Shown here: piece by piece, positions 4,586 through 58,920 of the stretch
Layout of the letters: each line of letters starts with the position of its first letter
How positions within the stretch are numbered: the first letter of the stretch is position 1
Assembly: GCF_030816965.1 (NCBI RefSeq)
Contig: NZ_JAUSYQ010000002.1
Location: 9,042,001 to 9,106,000, forward strand
Length of the DNA stretch: 64,000 nt
Direction: 5' to 3'
From: Streptomyces canus
GTDB lineage: Bacteria > Actinomycetota > Actinomycetes > Streptomycetales > Streptomycetaceae
Notes under the pieces: generated by a model
Databases searched by the model: none
The model's input: the letters and a program-made list of their open reading frames with translations, nothing else
Told to the model about the DNA's origin: nothing
Position numbers and translations under genes: made by a program

Positions 4586-5162
4586 CCCCTTCCCCACCGC
4601 ACTGAAGATCCTGGTGGCGGGGGGGTTCGGGGTAGGCAAGACGACCTTCGTGGGCGCGGTCAGCGAGATCGCTCCCCTCAGCACGGAGGAACTGCTCACC
4701 ACGGTCAGCGCGGCGACCGACAGTCTCGAGGGTATCGAGAACAAGGTCGAGACGACGGTGGCCATGGACTTCGGAAGGATCACGCTCGACCCGGAACACG
4801 TCCTGTACCTGTTCGGCACGCCCGGGCAGGAGCGGTTCTGGTTCATGTGGGACGAACTGTCCGAGGGCGCGCTCGGCGCGGTGATCCTCGCCGACACCCG
4901 CAGACTGGAGGACTGCTTCGCGGCCGTGGACTTCTTCGAGCAGCGCGGCCTCGGATTCATCGTCGCGATCAACGAGTTCGACGGGGGGTACCGCTACGAC
5001 CCCGAGGAGGTCCGCGCCGCCATCGACCTCCCGCAGGAGATCCCGATCGTGCGCTGCGACGCACGGATCTCCAGTTCCGGTGTGCAGACCCTGCTCACCC
5101 TCGTACGGCATCTCATCGCCCACAGCCCGGCGCCCGCGCCGAGCCATGGCGCCCACATGTGA
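4563..5162 (+). CDS. cvnD: Conservon CvnD: small Ras-like GTP-binding protein
   Basis: Small GTPase of 199 residues. The P-loop GGFGVGKTT is at residues 20-28, switch I has a TT pair near 64-65, and switch II contains FGTPGQERF (84-92). The base-recognition loop reads INEFD (N137, D140) where ordinary Ras-like GTPases have NKxD, a divergence I associate with conservon GTPases. It is the presumed output of the CvnA-B-C complex. The start lies inside the end of cvnC. Confidence 0.92.
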   Translation: MDYDDSSDPFPTALKILVAGGFGVGKTTFVGAVSEIAPLSTEELLTTVSAATDSLEGIENKVETTVAMDFGRITLDPEHVLYLFGTPGQERFWFMWDELSEGALGAVILADTRRLEDCFAAVDFFEQRGLGFIVAINEFDGGYRYDPEEVRAAIDLPQEIPIVRCDARISSSGVQTLLTLVRHLIAHSPAPAPSHGAHM

Positions 5163-5191
5163 ACCCCGCACACACCGCCACGGAGCCGCAT

Positions 5192-5227
5192 ATGACCGAC
5201 GTCCACAGCGACGGAACCCGCCCATGA
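5192..5227 (+). other. Possible 11-codon coupling ORF before the GAF gene
   Basis: A short open frame begins with ATG six bases after GGAG and ends in TGA overlapping the ATG of the GAF gene (ATGA at 5224-5227). The GAF gene itself has no good Shine-Dalgarno sequence directly in front of its ATG. This layout would let ribosomes terminating here re-initiate on the GAF message. It is seen in sequence only and expression is unproven. Confidence 0.3.
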
Positions 5228-5802
5228 GCTACGACCCACCACGCCCGGCCGGTCGTCTGCTGCTCACCCCGGAGGACAAGGAGGCCCCGGACCGGGCGCG
5301 ACGGCTGCGCCTGCTGGGCCTCGGGGAGCGCCCGGAGCCCGCTCTGGACGCCTTCGCCGAGCGGCTCGCCGAGTGCACGGGGGCGCCGTACGCCATGGTC
5401 AACTTCATCGGCGAGAACCGGCAGTTCTTCGCCGGTCTCAGGATTCCCGTGGCCCGGCCCCCGGCGGACGGCGACGAGGCCAAGCCGGCAGTGGGCCGCT
5501 ATATGGCGCGCGACCATGGGTTCTGCCCCCATGTGATCGCCCGCCGCAAGGCGCTGGTCCTGGAGGACGTGCGTGACTACCCACGGTTCGCGGGCAACCC
5601 GGTTGTCGACGAGTTCGGCATCCGTTCCTATCTGGGCGCGCCGCTCATCGACTCCGCGGGGATGGTGCTGGGCACGGTGTGCGCAGCGGACGTGCAGCCC
5701 CGGACCTGGGGGAAGTCCGGTCTGGAGATCATCAAGTTGTCGGCGTCGGAACTGGCCGCGCGTCTGGAGCGACGGGAGGCCGACGGGCTCCCGGTGCTGT
5801 GA
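5224..5802 (+). CDS. GAF-domain sensory protein downstream of the conservon
   Basis: 192-residue soluble protein that is essentially a single GAF domain. The family-typical AYAMVNFIGENRQFF-like strand (PYAMVNFIGENRQFFAG), the GFCPHVIARRKALVLEDV segment, FGIRSYLGAPL and VLGTVCAADVQPRTW are all present. GAF domains bind small ligands or sense redox state. No output domain is attached, so it probably acts on a partner, plausibly the conservon complex given its position 62 bases after cvnD. The start at 5224 follows the short coupling frame. The stop overlaps a GTG that is in frame with the next gene. Confidence 0.8.
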   Translation: MSYDPPRPAGRLLLTPEDKEAPDRARRLRLLGLGERPEPALDAFAERLAECTGAPYAMVNFIGENRQFFAGLRIPVARPPADGDEAKPAVGRYMARDHGFCPHVIARRKALVLEDVRDYPRFAGNPVVDEFGIRSYLGAPLIDSAGMVLGTVCAADVQPRTWGKSGLEIIKLSASELAARLERREADGLPVL

Positions 5803-5846
5803 CGGGCGGAACGGTCACACTGCCAGCCGACCGGTCCACTACCCTC

Positions 5847-6459
5847 GTGGACTTGCTGTGGGGACGTACCAGTGACGCCAGGCAGAAGAGCCTCGGTGCC
5901 GCGCGCTCGCTCATCGAGGGGCGCGGCTACTCGGCGCTGAGGGTGGCCGAGATCTGCAAGGCGGCCGGGGTGCCGAAGGGCGGTTTCTCCTACTTCTTCG
6001 AGTCCAAGGAGGCCCTCGCGCTCGCCGTCGTCGACAAGCACTGGGCAGCCCAACGGTGGGAGTGGGAAACCGTGTTGGGCACAGACGCGGACCCCCTGCG
6101 GCGGCTGCGCGGGCTCTTCGAGCAGACCGAGGCCGGCCAGCGTGCCGTCCAGGAGGGCTGCGGCACGGTCTCGGGCTGTCTGTTCGGGAACCTCGCTCTG
6201 GAGCTGAGCAACCACGCCGAGCCCCTGCGCGGACGGCTGCAGGAGATCTTCGACGCGCAGGTCGACATCGTCGAGGCGGTCGTCGCCGAGGCCCGGGACC
6301 GCGGCGACGCCACCGTGTCCCACCCACGGGAGGCGGCACGGGCGGTGGTGGCCCAACTGGAGGGCCAGGTGATGTTCGCCAAGCTTCTACAACAGCCCCC
6401 AGCGCCTGAGCCCCCTGTGGGACAACTGCCGATCCCTGCTCGGCGTCGCAGGCTCCTAG
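5847..6459 (+). CDS. TetR/AcrR-family regulator with a one-base frameshift near its 3' end
   Basis: N-terminal TetR helix-turn-helix (ARSLIEGRGYSALRVAEICKAAGVPKGGFSYFFESKEAL) and the TetR C-terminal helical domain are clear. At about 6385-6388 the frame breaks. Removing one base after AAGCT restores a typical TetR ending (KLYNSPQRLSPLWDNC...) that stops at TAG 6457-6459, and 6459-5847+1 minus one base divides by three. Unrepaired, the frame runs on to 6731, antisense to the next gene. The repaired stop shares the palindrome CTAG with the stop of the opposite gene, which strongly supports the repaired frame as ancestral. GTG 5847 was chosen; GTG 5799, overlapping the GAF stop, is an alternative. 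The target is unknown. Confidence 0.72.
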
Positions 6460-50682: not shown

Positions 50683-50717
50683 TCCCGTCTGCGGCGGCTG
50701 CGCATAGCGTGAGCGGC

Positions 50718-51863
50718 ATGAAGTCCGTTTCCGCCCGGGGCTGCGTATGGGCCGCCGGCATCGGTGCCCTCGTCGCAGCGGCCGCTGTCGACCTCTTCGC
50801 CTCGGGCGCCGACAAGGGCGTCGGCTGGCCACAGGCGGCCGTGCTGCTGCTCGGCACCGCCGCCGTACTGTGGCCGGCCCACCGGCGCCCGCCCTGGCTC
50901 ACCCCCCAACTGCGCGCCGTCGTGCCGGCCGTGGCCTCCCTCCTGTGCACGGCCGACTCCGTGGTGCGCTCCGGTGCCCTGTTCGGACCGGGCGAGCTGG
51001 CGATCCTGCTGTGCCTGTTGTTCGTCGCGGTACGGCACTGTCCGCGCACCTCGGTGATGGCGTGCGCGTCGCTCGACGGCGCCGCCGTCCTCGCGCTGCC
51101 GGTGCGGCCGTTCCTCGACGACGAGGACCTCATGCTGGCGTACATGCTGATCGGGTTCGTCCTGATCGGCCTCACCGTGGCGTTTGCCGCATATCTGCGC
51201 TCGCAGGACTACCGGCGGACCGTCGCCGTCAGCGAGACCCGGCGGGCGGAGCGCCTGGCCATCGCCGCCGACCTGCACGACTTCGTCGCCCACCATGTCA
51301 CCGGCATCCTGGTGCAGACCCAGGTGGCGCGGATGATGGCGGACACCGGCGCCGACGAACTCGACCCCGTCCTCGCCGGTATCGAGCGGGCCGCGACCGA
51401 GGCGCTGGCGTCGATGCGCCGCACGGTCGGTGTGCTGCGCGACACCGAGGACCCGGCCGACCGGCGCCCGGTGGGCGACCTCGCGGGCATCGCCGGCCTC
51501 ATCGACGGCTTCGCGAGCCCCATCCAGAAAGCCACCCTGCACCGCGCCCCCGCGGTACCCGACGACCTCCCGCACGAAGTCCAGGCGGCCGCCTTCCGGG
51601 TGGTGCAGGAGGCCCTGACCAACGTACGCCGGCACGCGGCCGACGCCACCCAGGTCACCGTCGGGCTGGGCTACGAGCGGGCCCGCCTGGAGGTGACCGT
51701 GTCCGACGACGGGCGCGGCGGCAGCCAGTTGCCGCCCGCGGCGCACGGGGGCGGCTTCGGTCTCGTCGGCCTGAAGGAACGGGTGACGGCCCTCGGCGGC
51801 GAACTGCACGCGGGGCCGCGGGCGGAGCAGGGGTGGGAGGTGCGGGCGCTGCTTCCCGGATGA
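50718..51863 (+). CDS. Sensor histidine kinase (NarL-partner, HisKA_3 type)
   Basis: 381 residues. About four membrane segments lie in the first 160 residues. The dimerisation/phosphoacceptor helix has H187 ([20 protein letters not shown]), then the HATPase domain with [13 protein letters not shown] (N-box), SDDGRGG and [11 protein letters not shown]. It is divergent from the DUF4333-ABC operon and presumably phosphorylates the LuxR regulator at 46357. GTG 50709 is an alternative start. Confidence 0.9.
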
Positions 51864-52041
51864 CGGGGGGCTTGGGGCGGAGGGTGTGGGTGATCTTTGC
51901 CGGATGACGCGGGACCTCGTCCCCGAGACTGCGGGCGGTCTGCCGGGCCTGCGCGGCGCTCTCGCCCCGATGACGCGGGCAGTCTTCCCCGGCCGGGGGG
52001 CCGGGTTGTTCAATGGGGCTGCACACGAGAGGAGCCCGCCC

Positions 52042-52674
52042 GTGTCCCCTGTTTCCGTGCCGGCCGTCGGGGCGCGCATTCGGCAGGCGCGGCTGGAGCG
52101 TGGTGTGGGGTTGCGCGCGCTGGCCCGTGAGGTCGGCGTCTCCGCGAGTCTGGTCTCCCAGATAGAGACCGGGAAGAGCCAGCCGTCGGTCAGCACCCTG
52201 TACGCGATCACCACGGCCCTCGGCATCTCGGTCGAAGCCCTCTTCGAGGGACGGGAGACCGCAGCCGCGGTGGGTTCGGACACGGTCGTACACGCCCTGG
52301 CGGCCTTCGCGGCCGACCCCGGCCGACGCATCGGCCCCCTGGTCAGCCCCGGTGAGCGGGAGGTGCTGGAGCTGGACTCCGGCGTCGTGTGGGAGCGGCT
52401 CGGGCACGTCCCCGGCACGGACGTGGACTTCCTGCTCGTCACGTACCGGCCCGGCGGCTCCTCCTCCGGCTCGGGCGGCCTGATGCGGCACGCCGGCAGC
52501 GAGTACGGCTATCTGACCTCCGGTGAACTCGTCCTCACCCTCGGCTTCGACGAGCAGGTTCTGCGCCCCGGCGACGCCGTCTGCTTCGAGTCCACGACCC
52601 CCCACCGCTACCGCAACGACGGCGACGTACCGGCCGTGGGCGTCTGGTTCGTGGCAAGCCAAACCGTTCAGTGA
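52042..52674 (+). CDS. XRE-family regulator with cupin domain
   Basis: 210 residues. The N-terminal HTH is at about 8-65 ([52 protein letters not shown]) and the C-terminal cupin at about 110-205 ([56 protein letters not shown]) with histidine and glutamate/tyrosine positions of a sensory cupin. It precedes the six-gene catabolic operon by about 50 bases and most likely controls it. GTG 52042 has AGAGGAG eight bases upstream. Confidence 0.88.
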
Positions 52675-52677
52675 CAC

Positions 52678-52706
52678 TTGACACCCCTTGTGGACGGTCG
52701 TTGACT
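52678..52706 (+). promoter_or_regulatory. Candidate promoter of the M24-E1-amidohydrolase operon
   Basis: TTGACA (52678-52683), 17-base spacer, then TTGACT (52701-52706), which keeps only the first and last T of a -10. The start would fall about 15 bases before the ATG at 52727. It begins four bases after the regulator stop. Confidence 0.45.
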
Positions 52707-52726
52707 CGATGGTGGGGGTGGTCGCG

Positions 52727-54064
52727 ATGGCGATCCGCACTTACGGCCCCAATGCCGTCGACTGGGAAGAGCGCGTCGACCTGGACCGGCTGCGCAGACA
52801 GCGTCTGGCCCGGCTCCACGACACACTGAACCGCTCCGAACTGGGCGCTGTGCTCAGCTTCGACTTCGCCAACATCCGCTACATGACCGCCACGCACATC
52901 GGCACCTGGGCGATGGACAAGCTGATCCGCTTCGCCCTGCTGGTCCGCGGGGGCGAACCGATCGTCTGGGACTTCGGCTCCGCGGCCCGCCACCACCAGC
53001 TCTACAACCCCTGGCTCGACTACAGCGACGGCAAGGGCGGCCCGCCCACCGGAGCCCGCGCGGGCATCTCCACCCTGCGGGGCGCCTTCCACCCGGACGC
53101 CGGCATCGCCGAGGACGTCGCCGCGAAGATCGCCGCCGAACTACGCGCCCACGGTCTCGCCGGCGAACCGCTCGGCATCGACGTCGCCGAGATGCCGGTC
53201 CTCGCCGCCCTGCGGGCCGAGGGCATCGATGTGGTCGACGGGCAGCAGGTCTTCCTCGAGGCCCGCCGCATCAAGACCGGCGGCGAGATCTCCCTGCTCG
53301 CCCAGGCCTGCGCGATGGTCGACGCGGCCTACGAGGAGCTGTACGGCTACCTCCGCCCAGGAGTCCGCGAGAACGAGTGCGTCGGACTGGTCAGCAAAGT
53401 CCTCTACGACCTCGGCAGCGAGTACGTCGAAGGTGTCAACGCCATCTCCGGGGAGCGCTGTTCACCCCACCCGCACGTCTACAGCGACCGCCTGATCCGC
53501 CCGGGCGACCCCGCCTTCTTCGACATCCTGCACAGCCACCTCGGCTACCGCACCTGCTACTACCGCACCTTCGCCGTGGGCAGCGCCTCCCGTGCCCAGC
53601 GCGACGCCTACGTCCGCTGCCGCGCGTACATGGACGAGGCGATCTCCCTGGTCCGGCCGGGCGCCACCACCGCCGACGTCGTGCAGGTCTGGCCGCGCGC
53701 CGAGGAGTTCGGCTTCGCCGACGAGACCGCCGCCTTCGCTCTCCAGTACGGCCACGGGGTGGGCCTGTCGATCTGGGAGAAGCCCATCTTCAGCCGCCTG
53801 GTCTCCCTCGACCACCCCGAAGTCCTCGAGGAGGGCATGGTGTTCGCCCTGGAGACCTACTGGCCGGCCGCCGACGGCTGGTCCGCCGCCCGGATCGAGG
53901 AAGAGCTGGTCGTCACCGCCGACGGCTGCGAGGTCATCACCAAGTTCCCGGCCGAGGAGCTGCTGGTGGCCGGCCGCAAGTACTGGACCGTGGGCGGCGA
54001 GCTCAACACCGCCCGGGAGGCGCAGTCCCACCTGAACACGGGGACCATCGATGGACACCGCTGA
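52727..54064 (+). CDS. M24 (Xaa-Pro peptidase/creatinase-fold) protein with an altered metal site
   Basis: 445 residues: an N-terminal creatinase-like domain to about 170 and a pita-bread M24 domain after it. Expected metal ligands map to D266 (FFDILH), H343 (YGHGVGL), E376 (FALETYW) and E391 (RIEEEL). The second aspartate of the usual D-x10-D is cysteine (C277, in RTCYYRTF). Creatinases and the DMSP lyase DddP show that this fold can serve other reactions, so peptidase activity should not be assumed. ATG 52709 is an alternative start. The 3' end overlaps the E1 alpha gene by 14 bases. Confidence 0.82.
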   Translation: MAIRTYGPNAVDWEERVDLDRLRRQRLARLHDTLNRSELGAVLSFDFANIRYMTATHIGTWAMDKLIRFALLVRGGEPIVWDFGSAARHHQLYNPWLDYSDGKGGPPTGARAGISTLRGAFHPDAGIAEDVAAKIAAELRAHGLAGEPLGIDVAEMPVLAALRAEGIDVVDGQQVFLEARRIKTGGEISLLAQACAMVDAAYEELYGYLRPGVRENECVGLVSKVLYDLGSEYVEGVNAISGERCSPHPHVYSDRLIRPGDPAFFDILHSHLGYRTCYYRTFAVGSASRAQRDAYVRCRAYMDEAISLVRPGATTADVVQVWPRAEEFGFADETAAFALQYGHGVGLSIWEKPIFSRLVSLDHPEVLEEGMVFALETYWPAADGWSAARIEEELVVTADGCEVITKFPAEELLVAGRKYWTVGGELNTAREAQSHLNTGTIDGHR

Positions 54065-55028
54065 ACTCCTCGCCCTGTACGAGCAGATGGCCCTCATCCG
54101 CCGTACGGAGAAGGCCGCCCACGACCTGTTCCTCCAGGGCCTCGTCAAGGGCACCACCCACCTCGCCGCCGGCCACGAGGCGATCGCGGTCGGCGCGAGC
54201 GCCGCCCTGCGCGACGACGACTACGTCTTCGCCACCTACCGCGGCCACCACCACGCGATGGCCCGGGGCGCCACCGTCGAGGAGTGCCTGGCCGAACTCA
54301 TGAGCAGGGCGACGGGGTTGTGCAAGGCCAAGGGCGGGTCCATGCACCTCACCAAGGCCGACGCCAACATGCTCGGCTCCTACGCCATCGTCGGCGCCCA
54401 CCTGCCGATGGCGGTCGGCGCCGCCTGGTCCGCCCGGCTGCGCGGCACCGGACAGCTCGCGGTCGCCTTCTTCGGGGACGGCGCCACCAACATCGGCTCC
54501 TTCCACGAGGCGTTGAATCTGGCCGCCGTATGGAAGCTGCCCGTGCTGTTCGTCTGCGAGAACAACCTGTACATGGAGTACACGCGGATCGCCGACGTCA
54601 CGGCGGTGCCCCGGCCGGCCGCCGACCGGGCACCGGCGTACGGCATCCCCGGTGAGGTCGTCGACGGAAACGACGTCGTCTCCGTCCAGGAGGCGGTGGC
54701 ACGGCTGGCGCGACGGGCCCGGGCCGGAGACGGGCCCGCCGTGCTGGAGGCCGAGACCTACCGCCACTTCGGGCACAGCCGGTCCGACCCGGCGACCTAC
54801 CGCCCGGCCGAGGAGGTCGAACGCTGGCTCAAACACGACCCGCTGGACATCGCGCGCGGGCGGCTGATCGAGGCGGGGGTGCCCGAGGAGACGGTCACCG
54901 CGGCCGACGGGCGCGCACAGACAGTCGTACGGCAGGCGATCGAGGCCGCGAAGAGCGCGCCGCCGCCGGATCCGCGGGAGGCGTTCACCGACGTGTGGGC
55001 GGACGGAGGTGCGGCATGGCGGACGTGA
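54051..55028 (+). CDS. TPP-dependent 2-oxoacid/acetoin dehydrogenase E1 alpha subunit
   Basis: 325 residues. The thiamine diphosphate motif starts GDGATN (142-147) and ends ENN (170-172). YRGHHHAMARG (63-73) and the phosphorylation-loop region YRHFGHSRSDPATYR are typical of AcoA/PdhA-type subunits. It decarboxylates a 2-oxo acid or cleaves acetoin-like substrates and passes the acyl group on. It overlaps both neighbours, and E1 beta follows directly. No lipoyl E2 or E3 gene is in the operon. Confidence 0.9.
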   Translation: MDTAELLALYEQMALIRRTEKAAHDLFLQGLVKGTTHLAAGHEAIAVGASAALRDDDYVFATYRGHHHAMARGATVEECLAELMSRATGLCKAKGGSMHLTKADANMLGSYAIVGAHLPMAVGAAWSARLRGTGQLAVAFFGDGATNIGSFHEALNLAAVWKLPVLFVCENNLYMEYTRIADVTAVPRPAADRAPAYGIPGEVVDGNDVVSVQEAVARLARRARAGDGPAVLEAETYRHFGHSRSDPATYRPAEEVERWLKHDPLDIARGRLIEAGVPEETVTAADGRAQTVVRQAIEAAKSAPPPDPREAFTDVWADGGAAWRT

Positions 55029-55996
55029 TCACGTACCGGGAGGCGGTCGCCGAGGGCATCGCGCGGGAGATGCGACGCGATCCGTCCGTCGTCTGCCTGG
55101 GGGAGGACATCGGTGAGGCCGGCGGGGTGTTCAAGACGACCGCCGGGCTGCTGAAGGAGTTCGGGCGGGAGCGGGTGTGGGACACGCCGATCTCCGAACA
55201 GGCCATCGTGGGCGCGGCGATGGGTGCCGCGATGACCGGGATGCGGCCCGTCGCGGAGATCATGTTCTCGGACTTTCTGGCCTGTTGTTGGGACTACCTC
55301 GCCAACGAGATACCCAAGGTGCGTTACATGACGGGTGGTCAGGTCACCGTGCCCCTCGTCGTTCGCACCGCCAACGGCGGCGGGCTCGGTTTCGGCGCGC
55401 AGCACTCTCAGGCCACCGAGAACTGGGCGCTGACCGTCCCCGGACTGAAGATCGCGGCACCTTCCACCCCCGCCGACGTCATCGGGATGATGGCGGCGGC
55501 CGTACGCAGCGACGACCCCGTGGTCTTCTTCGAGCACAAGGGGCTGCTGGCCGCCAAGGGCGCGCCCGCGCCGCCCGGCCACGTGGTCGAACTAGGGCGC
55601 GCCGCCGTCGCGCGCGAGGGCGCCGACGTGACGCTGGTGGCGCTCGCCTCGATGGTGCCGGTGGCGTTGCAGGCCGCTTCGCTGCTCGCCGAGGAGGACA
55701 TCGGCGTCGAGGTCGTCGACCTGCGGTCCCTCGTGCCGCTCGACATGGCCACCGTCCTCGCCTCGCTCGGCCGGACCTCCCGGCTGGTCACCGTCGAGGA
55801 GAACCCGTACCAGGGCGGCTGGGGCGCCACGCTCGTCTCCGTCGTCGCCGACGAGGGCTTCGCTCTGCTGGACGCGCCGGTGCGGCGGGTGGCGGCGGAG
55901 TGTGTGCCGCTGCCGTTCGCGGACGTGCTGGAGGAGCAGGTCATCCCCACCGTCGACAAGGTCGTGGCGGCCGTCAGGAGCCTGGCCGCGTACTGA
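55016..55996 (+). CDS. TPP-dependent 2-oxoacid/acetoin dehydrogenase E1 beta subunit
   Basis: 326 residues, transketolase-like beta subunit (TYREAVAEGIAREMRRDPSVVCLGEDIGEAGGVFKTT, GMRPVAEIMFSDF, GGLGFGAQHSQATENW, and the C-terminal VVDLRSLVPLDMATVLASLGRTSRLVTVEE). It forms the heterotetrameric E1 with the alpha subunit. Its start lies inside the end of the E1 alpha gene. Its acyl acceptor is not encoded nearby. Confidence 0.91.
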   Translation: MADVITYREAVAEGIAREMRRDPSVVCLGEDIGEAGGVFKTTAGLLKEFGRERVWDTPISEQAIVGAAMGAAMTGMRPVAEIMFSDFLACCWDYLANEIPKVRYMTGGQVTVPLVVRTANGGGLGFGAQHSQATENWALTVPGLKIAAPSTPADVIGMMAAAVRSDDPVVFFEHKGLLAAKGAPAPPGHVVELGRAAVAREGADVTLVALASMVPVALQAASLLAEEDIGVEVVDLRSLVPLDMATVLASLGRTSRLVTVEENPYQGGWGATLVSVVADEGFALLDAPVRRVAAECVPLPFADVLEEQVIPTVDKVVAAVRSLAAY

Positions 55997-56018
55997 ACAC
56001 CCTTCAGGAGGAAGCGCG

Positions 56019-57365
56019 ATGACCCATCGGATACTCCTTCGTGCCGGACACGTGCTCTCGATGGACCCCGCAGTCGGGGACCTGCCCAAGGGTGACGTCC
56101 TCATCGAGGACGGGAAGATCGCGGCCGTGGACCGCGAGATCGACGCGGAGGCCGAAGTCCTCGACATGGCCGGCCGCATCGTGATCCCCGGCTTCGTCGA
56201 CACCCACCGTCACACGTGGGAGGCCTCGATCCGGAACGTGGCGCCCGACGCCACCCTCGACGACTACTTCGTCGACATCCTCGACACCTTCGCACCCCTT
56301 TACACACCCGAGGACGTGTACGCGGCCAACCTCGCGGGCGCCCTGGAGTGCCTGAACGCCGGCATCACCACGCTCGTCGACTGGTCCCACATCAACAACA
56401 CGCCCGAGCACCCGGACGCGGCGATCCGGGCCCTCACGGAGACCGGCATCCGCGCCCAGTACGCCTACGGCAGCGCCAACACCTCCCTCGCCGACTACTG
56501 GTTCGAGAGCAAGATCGCGATCCCGGGCGACGACGTACGCCGCGTCCGCACCGAGTACTTCGCCTCGGACGACGGCCTGCTCACCCTGGCCCTCGCCACC
56601 CGCGGCCCCGGCTTCTGCGTCAACGACGTCGTCACCTCGGAGTGGGCCCTCGCCCGCGAGCTGGACATCCCGATCACCGTGCACGTGGCCATGGGACGGC
56701 TCGCCGGCCGCTTCGGGATGGTCAAGCAGCTCCACGACCTCGGACTGCTCGGCCCCGACACCACCTACGTCCACTGCTGCTACTTCAGCGAGGAGGAGTG
56801 GCGGCTGGTCGCCGACAGCGGCGGTACGGTCTCCATCGCGCCGCAGGTGGAGACGCAGATGGGGCACGGCTGGCCGCCGGTGATGAAGGCGATCGAGCAC
56901 GGACTGCGCCCCTCGCTCAGCATCGACGTCGTCACCACCGTGCCCGGCGACATGTTCACCCAGATCCGCGCGGCCTTCGGCGCCGAGCGGGCCCGCGTCA
57001 ACGCGGCGAGCTGGCAGGCCGATGTCCCGGTACCCGACACGATGTTGACCGCACGTCAGATGCTGGAGATAGCCACCAGCAACGGCGCGCATGTCGCCGG
57101 TCTGGAGGACCGCACCGGCTCCCTCACCCCGGGCAAGCGCGCCGACGTCGTCGCGATCGACGCAACCGCCCTGAATGTGACCCCGGTTCACGACGCCGCC
57201 GCGGCGGTCGCGCTGAGCGCCGACGTGTCCAACGTGGAGACCGTCCTCGTCGACGGCGTCGTCCGCAAGCGCGACGGCAGGCTCACCGCCGACGTGGCGC
57301 GCGCCCGGCGCCTGGTCGAGGAGTCCCGTGACCGGCTGCTGGCCGCGAAGGAGGCCCGGGCGTGA
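56019..57365 (+). CDS. Amidohydrolase of the ATZ/TRZ-cytosine deaminase superfamily
   Basis: 448 residues with the urease-alpha-like small beta domain plus TIM barrel. Mononuclear metal ligands are H63 and H65 (DTHRHTW), H222 (TVHVAMG), H252 (YVHCCYF) and D303 (SIDVVTT), all present. Relatives deaminate or dechlorinate N-heterocycles such as triazines, guanine derivatives and cytosine. An AGGAGG Shine-Dalgarno precedes the ATG. It overlaps the bicupin by GTGA. The substrate is probably a heterocyclic or amidine compound feeding the rest of the operon (inference). Confidence 0.88.
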   Translation: MTHRILLRAGHVLSMDPAVGDLPKGDVLIEDGKIAAVDREIDAEAEVLDMAGRIVIPGFVDTHRHTWEASIRNVAPDATLDDYFVDILDTFAPLYTPEDVYAANLAGALECLNAGITTLVDWSHINNTPEHPDAAIRALTETGIRAQYAYGSANTSLADYWFESKIAIPGDDVRRVRTEYFASDDGLLTLALATRGPGFCVNDVVTSEWALARELDIPITVHVAMGRLAGRFGMVKQLHDLGLLGPDTTYVHCCYFSEEEWRLVADSGGTVSIAPQVETQMGHGWPPVMKAIEHGLRPSLSIDVVTTVPGDMFTQIRAAFGAERARVNAASWQADVPVPDTMLTARQMLEIATSNGAHVAGLEDRTGSLTPGKRADVVAIDATALNVTPVHDAAAAVALSADVSNVETVLVDGVVRKRDGRLTADVARARRLVEESRDRLLAAKEARA

Positions 57366-58234
57366 CGCGACACCTGGTGCGCCGGGCCGCCGACGTGCCG
57401 GAGCCGTCGTACGACGAACACGGCTACCGGCGTCGGGAGTTGGTCGGCGAGGGCGACGGCAGTTCGCACACCGGTTTCGGGGTGTGCGAGCTGCGGCCCG
57501 ATGGGGCGGTCCCGGCTCATGTGCACTCGTACGAGGAGAGTTTCCACGTCCTTGACGGGACCGTGGTCCTCGATGTGCCCGAGGGGTCGTACCTGCTGGA
57601 GGAGGGTGACTACGGCCTCCTCCCGGCCGGGGTCCCGCACGCGTGGCGCGGCGCCGGGGACACTGTCGCCCGCTGGGCCGACATGCTCGCGCCGGTGCCG
57701 CGGGCCCGGTACGGGTACGACACCCAGGCGGTCCCGGCGTGGCCCGCGCGCCCGCCCGTCCGTATCGACGTCCGCGATCCGCGCACCCGGTCCTTCGGTC
57801 ACTTCGATCCCGCCCAGATGGACCCGGGCAAGCAGTCCCAGGACCTGCTCGCGGTGTCGGCGAGCATGCGGACCGCGCTTCTCGTCTACAGCGGGATCAC
57901 GGTGAAGATGATGGTCGACAGCGATCTCGGCGCGGTGGCCTCGACGATGTTCATGGTGCAGTACGCGCCCGACGGCGTCGCGGGCACGCACGACCATCCC
58001 TTCGAGGAGACGTATCTGTTCCTCGAGGGCGAGGTGGACGGGGTCTTCGACGGTGCGCGACACCGGCTCGGTCCGGGCGACTGCGCCTGGGCGGGCGCCG
58101 GTTGTGTGCACGGCTTCTCCAACGCCGGTGACGGACCGCTGCGTTGGCTGGAGACACAGGCCCCGCAGCCGCCCGCGCGGCACTCGTACCGCTTCACGCG
58201 GGACTGGGACTACCTGAGGGAGGCTTCCCGATGA
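57362..58234 (+). CDS. Bicupin protein with two complete metal sites
   Basis: 290 residues made of two cupin domains. Domain 1 ligands are H53, H55, E59 and H93 (HVHSYEE ... PHAW); domain 2 ligands are H210, H212, E216 and H250 (HDHPFEE ... VHGF). Both retain the full 3-His/1-Glu set, so an enzyme (dioxygenase, isomerase or aminohydrolase such as ureidoglycine aminohydrolase, also a bicupin) is more likely than a sensor. GTG start overlapping the amidohydrolase stop; ATGA overlap with the SDR. Confidence 0.82.
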   Translation: MTRHLVRRAADVPEPSYDEHGYRRRELVGEGDGSSHTGFGVCELRPDGAVPAHVHSYEESFHVLDGTVVLDVPEGSYLLEEGDYGLLPAGVPHAWRGAGDTVARWADMLAPVPRARYGYDTQAVPAWPARPPVRIDVRDPRTRSFGHFDPAQMDPGKQSQDLLAVSASMRTALLVYSGITVKMMVDSDLGAVASTMFMVQYAPDGVAGTHDHPFEETYLFLEGEVDGVFDGARHRLGPGDCAWAGAGCVHGFSNAGDGPLRWLETQAPQPPARHSYRFTRDWDYLREASR

Positions 58235-58920
58235 GCGGCGTGGTGGTGATCGGCGGAACCTCGGGCATCGGCAGGGAGTTCGCCAGGGTGCGGGCGGAGC
58301 GCGGCGACGAGGTGGTGATCACCGGGCGCGACGCCCACCGCGCCGACACCGCGGCCAAGGAGATCGGCGCCCGGGGGCTCGCCCTGGACCTCGCGCGGCC
58401 GAAGGGGATCGCCGACGCGCTGGGCGATGTGGGGACCGTCGACCACCTGGTGATCACGGGCGTCTCCCGGGACGAGAACCGGGTGGCCGAGTACGACATC
58501 GACGCCGCCGTCCACCTCGTCACGCTCAAGCTCGTCGGCTACACCGCCGTCGTGCACGCGCTGCGGTCCCGGCTGCACGACGACAGCGCCATCGTGCTGT
58601 TCGGCGGACAGGCCAAGGAGCGGCCGTACCCGGGCGCCACGACGGTGGCGACCGTCAACGCCGGGGTGACCGGGCTGATGCACACCCTCGTCGTCGAACT
58701 CGCGCCCGTCCGGGTCAACGCGATCCACCCCGGAGTCGTGGGCGACAGCCCCCACTGGCGGGCCAAACCGGAGCAGGTCCTGGCGGGACTGCGGGCCAGG
58801 ACCCCGACCGGACGGCTCGCGACCGTGGCGGACGTGGTGGACGCCGTGGACTTCCTGTTGCGCAACGGCTCGGTCAACGCGGTGGAGTTGAGCGTGGACG
58901 GGGGGTGGCTGCTGGGGTGA
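58231..58920 (+). CDS. SDR-family protein without the catalytic Tyr-Lys pair
   Basis: 229 residues with an SDR Rossmann fold (GGTSGIG at 8-14; TGRDAHR; the loop VNAIHPGVVG after the last strand; a C-terminal SVDGGW). The active-site YxxxK positions read V139 and N143 (VATVN), and no nearby tyrosine substitutes. Ordinary SDR reduction/oxidation is therefore doubtful; it may be a lyase, a binding protein or an unusual dehydrogenase. Last gene of the operon, coupled to the bicupin. Confidence 0.83.
   Translation: MSGVVVIGGTSGIGREFARVRAERGDEVVITGRDAHRADTAAKEIGARGLALDLARPKGIADALGDVGTVDHLVITGVSRDENRVAEYDIDAAVHLVTLKLVGYTAVVHALRSRLHDDSAIVLFGGQAKERPYPGATTVATVNAGVTGLMHTLVVELAPVRVNAIHPGVVGDSPHWRAKPEQVLAGLRARTPTGRLATVADVVDAVDFLLRNGSVNAVELSVDGGWLLG

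Follow-up and report, generated by a model that had tools for sequence, protein, structure and literature searches.

The window analyzed here, a 64,000-nucleotide stretch of the Streptomyces canus genome (contig NZ_JAUSYQ010000002.1, positions 9,042,001 to 9,106,000), carries on its forward strand seven co-directional genes between positions 52042 and 58920, which we designate R and A to F (Table 1). They encode a regulator (R), an M24-fold enzyme (A), the two subunits of a thiamine pyrophosphate (TPP)-dependent E1 enzyme (B and C), an amidohydrolase-superfamily protein (D), a bicupin (E), and a short-chain dehydrogenase/reductase (SDR; F). R is separated from A by 52 bases, and the remaining genes are tightly packed: A overlaps B by 14 bases and B overlaps C by 13, C and D are 22 bases apart, and D/E and E/F are joined by GTGA and ATGA, respectively. 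This layout had been described in an initial annotation of the sequence; its coordinates and junctions were confirmed, and Pfam matches back its domain calls. The likeliest start of A is the ATG at 52727, although the frame is open from a TTG at 52688. Only two broad subfamily models, NF006667 for C and NF006056 for D, passed their cut-offs among the NCBIfam rows shown (the best 25 each for D and F), and no equivalog did so for any member of the set. No description of the gene set was found in the library of literature searched, so the earlier statement that it matches no named pathway holds for these sources.

Table 1 Features of the R-A-B-C-D-E-F locus, in window coordinates
Feature	Position	Strand	Details
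Putative R operator	52007-52025	+	TGTTCA-N7-TGCACA, 16 nt before R start codon
R, XRE-type regulator with cupin sensor domain	52042-52674	+	GTG start; Pfam HTH_3 and Cupin_2
A, M24-fold enzyme	52727-54064	+	Pfam Peptidase_M24
B, TPP-dependent E1 alpha subunit	54051-55028	+	Pfam E1_dh, PF00676
C, E1 beta subunit	55016-55996	+	Pfam Transket_pyr PF02779 and Transketolase_C PF02780
D, amidohydrolase-superfamily protein, PRK08204 subfamily	56019-57365	+	Pfam Amidohydro_1; NF006056
E, bicupin	57362-58234	+	Pfam Cupin_2 twice
F, SDR with NAD-binding motif	58231-58920	+	Pfam adh_short_C2

A search of genome contigs with D gave 197 relatives, and the best 80 of them were analyzed as loci. The order R-A-B-C-D-E-F on one strand is kept in 64 of these 80. 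Six of the 16 exceptions are broken by contig ends (L041, L047, L054, L065, L068, and L079), and an Actinomadura locus (L086) has all seven genes with R inverted. Among the others, the frames are split in L021, B and most of C are gone from L015, R and A are absent from L078, L074 holds B-C-D only, and five loci (L059, L063, L072, L082, and L087) contain D alone or with small pieces, the upstream side of L082 ending at a contig edge. Matches to E with at least 80% identity were present in 38 of 293 genomes of the order, the genome of the window included. In a phylum-wide sample of 396 genomes, searched with E-value thresholds of up to 1e-40 for A, 1e-25 for E, and 1e-100 for D, A was found in 40, E in 17, and D in 23. 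All 17 E-bearing genomes also contain A (hypergeometric probability 3e-19 assuming independent genomes, which are in fact related), and 16 of them have the two genes within 14 kb of each other on a single contig; G659, the 17th, has them on separate contigs, E being cut at a contig end. A accompanies D in 16 of 23 genomes, and the other seven all belong to one family, f20. The initial annotation had proposed that the products act together, which is backed by the conserved order, the co-occurrence, and the shared contigs; we consider it practically certain that R to F form one functional unit. The same annotation had named restriction to this strain as the outcome that would count against it. 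No such restriction was found, and the order kept in 64 loci, the co-occurrence across the phylum, and the 38 genomes with E rule out a strain-specific oddity. The operon is real, conserved, and built of known folds, and its pathway is nameless in the sources searched. As a separate observation, the S. stelliscabiei, S. scabiei, and S. caniscabiei loci (L063 6879-8132, L072 8493-9839, and L074 4735-6009) have luciferase-like monooxygenase genes upstream of D (PF00296 in the two scanned), together with a GNAT-like gene and an amino acid-type ATP-binding cassette (ABC) system, and their downstream neighbors match those of the window (both by eye).

R scored 63.6 bits against the PuuR model, below its cut-off of 211. 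Upstream regions of 120 bp were compared for the window and for 60 of the 62 loci where R was usable. The sequence TGTTCAATG occurred in 58 of these 61 regions (at most 1 in 200 letter shuffles), and an inverted repeat, TGTTCA-N7-TGNACA or TGTTC-N9-GAACA, in 50 (at most 0 in 200 shuffles). The palindrome is retained though its spacing to the start codon varies, and the Actinomadura locus has a like site, TGTACA-N7-TGAACA, in the gap between its divergent R and A. As a putative operator, its persistence across related species shows conservation rather than independent origin. A zero-mismatch match to TTCARTGNNGCTGYACA occurs once genome-wide, at this operon. A wider R regulon was considered and rejected, because 13 sites were found at up to two mismatches versus 15 for a reversed control, leaving nothing beyond the operon. 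R and its palindrome offer a direct route to the inducer and hence to the substrate. By eye, the open frame immediately upstream on this strand (50709-51863) resembles a histidine kinase.

A was aligned with 36 relatives having 34 to 89% identity to it, comprising seven database proteins, 20 from the phylum genomes, and nine from plasmids. Ten residues are invariant in all 37 sequences: H248, D266, C277, Y278, Y279, R280, H343, E376, E391, and E392. The metal-site positions are D266, C277, H343, E376, and E391, that is, D-C-H-E-E. Xaa-Pro peptidases (M24B) bind their metals through D-D-H-E-E, and an alignment to prolidases, in which the Asp positions are seen, places C277 at the second metal Asp, so A does not have the peptidase ligand set. 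The initial annotation had called the site altered, and the alteration proves to be an Asp-to-Cys exchange at the second ligand position in 37 of 37 members. Non-peptidase M24 enzymes cleave C–N bonds, as creatinase and ectoine hydrolase do, or C–S bonds, as DddP does; to our knowledge, neither creatinase nor ectoine hydrolase EutD/DoeA has a D-C-H-E-E site. A has at least 8000 relatives at an E-value of 1e-30, and nearly all the named ones among the 120 listed carry peptidase names. Should the family turn out to be catabolic and to cleave C–N or C–C bonds, these names would mislead and a common pathway would have gone unrecorded.

B scored 339.2 bits against the pyruvate dehydrogenase E1 alpha model TIGR03182 (cut-off 393.85), and the solved structures nearest to it are E1 alpha subunits of mitochondrial pyruvate dehydrogenase; C passed the cut-off of the broad subfamily model NF006667 (331.5 versus 321 bits). 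The operon contains no linked E2 or E3 gene, and the seven E2-domain matches in this genome all lie outside it. The description of the pair as an E1 without E2/E3 is thus correct locally, but relatives elsewhere do carry E2. Twenty regions around the best distant matches to A were fetched from 19 genomes, and in 14 of them B and C lie no farther than about 3 kb from A (C is cut by a contig end in one). An aldehyde dehydrogenase gene directly follows C in six regions (L158, L160, L161, L166, L167, and L168), and the stretches include a 3-hydroxyisobutyrate dehydrogenase-like gene in eight and a succinate-semialdehyde dehydrogenase-like gene in nine. In the genome of the window, no dedicated 3-hydroxyacid dehydrogenase was found elsewhere, the best match to the L150 protein being only 34%. 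L154 has a second, distant M24 gene close to A (4753-5952, PF00557), accompanied by an FrsA-like hydrolase and an aldehyde dehydrogenase; by eye, L151 (2833-4242) and L153 (3-476) have one as well. In L218 and L219, the A and E1 genes have two D-like paralogues and ABC-type genes (by eye) as neighbors, one paralogue lying in a frame that has a long N-terminal extension.

A plasmid search returned 49 records, of which 11 were read around A, together with one more Rhodococcus opacus place and a Streptomyces plasmid lacking annotation. Downstream of A, five Rhodobacterales plasmids carry E1 alpha and E1 beta, then a lipoyl/E2/"pyruvate dehydrogenase" gene, a succinate-semialdehyde dehydrogenase-like gene, and E2; lpdA was seen in one of the five (one stretch stops at the record edge). 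Near A on a Paenarthrobacter plasmid are a helix-turn-helix gene, RidA, a 3-hydroxyacid dehydrogenase-like gene, an F-like SDR, and lpdA; another has a fused E1, an amidase, ABC genes of the branched-chain type, RidA, a flavin reductase, and a further A; and in a second Paenarthrobacter strain E2 adjoins the fused E1. In Haloferax, a 34% relative of A neighbors E1 beta and E1 alpha genes. A is therefore paired with E1 both in bacteria and in an archaeon, and this E1 can be part of an E2-containing complex. Overall, the neighborhoods of relatives include ABC transporters, LacI/GntR/XRE regulators, flavin reductase, luciferase-like or HpaB monooxygenases, RidA, and 3-hydroxyisobutyrate dehydrogenase-like genes. 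Since A and E1 are so often paired, A is suggested to make the E1 substrate, a proposal for which we see the chances as even. TPP-dependent E1 enzymes use 2-oxo acids or ketols as substrates. For the pair B/C, a ketol or a 2-oxo acid, the end point guessed at in the initial annotation, is plausible, and E2 genes found next to A and E1 in relatives strengthen this. On one Paenarthrobacter plasmid (L170 12196-16368), the M24 gene lies some 2.2 kb away from sulR, which encodes a sulfonamide flavin reductase. A role in sulfonamide breakdown was dropped, since the heterocycles accumulate (PMC10873849), and the proximity was taken as plasmid neighborhood.

D belongs to the NF006056 (PRK08204, "hypothetical protein") subfamily with 638.4 bits against a cut-off of 391. 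Its HxH and later His and Asp metal residues align with those of 8-oxoguanine deaminase (7ww2), and the HxAE motif of the latter is replaced by HVAMG. COG0402 aminohydrolases/deaminases have a Glu in their HxxE motif; at this position, a comparison of 100 distinct D rows with identities as low as 35% gave Met in 95, Val in two, and Asp, Ser, and Ala in one each. The intact metal site reported for D was therefore retained, but its label as a deaminase type is weakened, and a standard deaminase identity is ruled out by the absence of Glu from all 100 rows. The D neighborhoods of six of the seven f20 genomes were read (L214, L215, L216, L217, L227, and L228). D follows an intradiol dioxygenase gene in four and a C-terminal piece of one in two (L227 and L228), a quinone oxidoreductase gene comes after D in all six, and a DesA/LigM-like O-demethylase gene is near in four. 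Dioxygenase, D, and oxidoreductase genes here make up a further neighborhood that is conserved, and some of these stretches also have a GntR-like regulator (by eye).

In E, the metal residues of the second domain (H210, H212, E216, and H250) are invariant among 26 aligned sequences, but the first cupin site varies in some relatives, so that only one of the two metal sites originally described as intact is kept throughout. The top fold matches of its predicted model are the ring-cleaving bicupins YxaG and salicylate 1,2-dioxygenase, at 15 to 18% identity; that E is an oxygenase is a tentative assignment, to which we give somewhat less than even weight. The nearest model for F is PRK07041, below its cut-off. 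Classical SDRs use a Ser-Tyr-Lys catalytic set, and F lacks it: as the initial annotation had recognized, the Tyr and Lys are missing, and a TV(A/S/T)TVN-type motif takes the place of Tyr-x-x-x-Lys in six of six proteins (the window and five relatives, including Paenarthrobacter). The simplest reading of the altered sites of A, D, and F is conserved substitution, not decay.

Taken together, we lean toward a locally regulated catabolic operon with the following steps. R would bind the upstream palindrome and release it on sensing a pathway compound. E, whose predicted model comes closest to ring-cleaving dioxygenases, and D, as a non-deaminase amidohydrolase, would work on a small substrate that is cyclic, (hetero)aromatic, or ureide-like. 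A could then cut a C–N or similar bond in an intermediate to yield a 2-oxo acid or an α-hydroxyketone, which B/C with TPP would decarboxylate or split, the acyl group passing to an E2 made elsewhere or an aldehyde being released. F might act on a carbonyl or isomerize an intermediate. The f20 context of D and the fold of E favor a ring compound, and the RidA, amidase, and branched-chain-type transporter genes of other relatives favor one containing nitrogen; both hints would be met by a heteroaromatic or ureide-type substrate, which fits best. As to the heterocycle or amide breakdown guessed at earlier, the intradiol dioxygenase context in f20 points to aromatic ring cleavage at least as much as to amides. 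Several observations weigh against the catabolic operon as drawn: B and C are missing from six of the 20 distant A regions (L151, L152, L153, L155, L159, and L163, the A of L155 lying at a contig start), D occurs without intact partners in five loci, the operon has no transporter while transporters vary among relatives, and we know of no operon member with an established activity. We consider it possible, though doubtful, that A founds a new M24 class in which the invariant metal-site Cys serves as a nucleophile or single-metal ligand and a dedicated TPP E1 directly takes up the product of a hydrolase or lyase reaction, in a widespread, nameless soil pathway where the active sites of D and F have also been repurposed.

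Four other explanations were weighed. The strongest, which we nevertheless regard as rather unlikely, is aromatic or heteroaromatic ring cleavage in which E would cleave a hydroxylated ring, D hydrolyze the product, and A with B/C form the lower pathway. The fold of E and the f20 context suit it, but a shared fold is not proof of a shared reaction, the window operon has no ring hydroxylase, and neither A nor E was found in the f20 genomes at the search thresholds. A pathway analogous to the allantoin route is unlikely. Here, D would open a ureide-like ring, E would resemble (S)-ureidoglycine aminohydrolase, A would act like creatinase on a ureido or amidino group, B/C would serve as the carboligase, and the 3-hydroxyacid dehydrogenase-like partner seen in relatives would be a tartronate semialdehyde reductase; however, E scored only 21 to 25 bits against the aminohydrolase equivalogs (cut-offs 200 to 445) and is outranked by ring-cleaving bicupins, and no allantoinase model was among the best 25 rows for D. 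A small operon for a specialized metabolite would agree with a position near 9.1 Mb in a 10.66-Mb genome (two contigs), with the patchy presence in the order, and with the odd enzymes, but the genes occur across unrelated families beside uptake-type ABC systems and semialdehyde dehydrogenase-like genes, and no biosynthetic core gene was noticed by eye; we judge this quite improbable and the operon probably catabolic rather than biosynthetic. Finally, we rejected as highly improbable that A is DddP, the dimethylsulfoniopropionate (DMSP) lyase, in an operon acting on DMSP or acrylate. Among the NCBIfam models, that of DddP (NF043017) matches A best and over nearly its whole length, and DddP also ranks first by Foldseek with the predicted structure, but A scored 105.7 bits against a cut-off of 600 and does not match the metal ligands of DddP.

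A catabolic operon of this kind can be set beside several known systems. A and DddP share the two-domain M24 fold, and DddP has six metal ligands, including Asp297 and Asp307 (PMC4108388). By comparison with these ligands, A has its invariant Cys at one metal position and, as placed by the prolidase alignment and spacing, Leu268 two residues after the first metal Asp where DddP has Asp297. The ectoine hydrolase EutD/DoeA models NF038259 and TIGR02993 gave 57.8 and 40.9 bits with A, far from their cut-offs of 575 and 613. D has the metal residues of 8-oxoguanine deaminase and AtzA, which we take to be COG0402-type deaminases, but not their HxxE Glu. E resembles YxaG and salicylate 1,2-dioxygenase in its two cupin domains with metal residues, and ring cleavage by E would be a prediction from this resemblance. 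B/C share the two-gene E1 with TPP domains of 2-oxo acid and acetoin dehydrogenases and differ in having no linked E2 or E3; the pyruvate dehydrogenase complex includes both, and the Rhodobacterales relatives have E2 after E1 in all five loci read. The E. coli allantoin operon, with gcl, glxR, allB, and ylbA, offers like function classes, namely a TPP enzyme, an amidohydrolase, a bicupin, and, in relatives of the window operon, a semialdehyde reductase-like gene; the enzyme families differ, however, and the window operon adds an M24 enzyme and an SDR.

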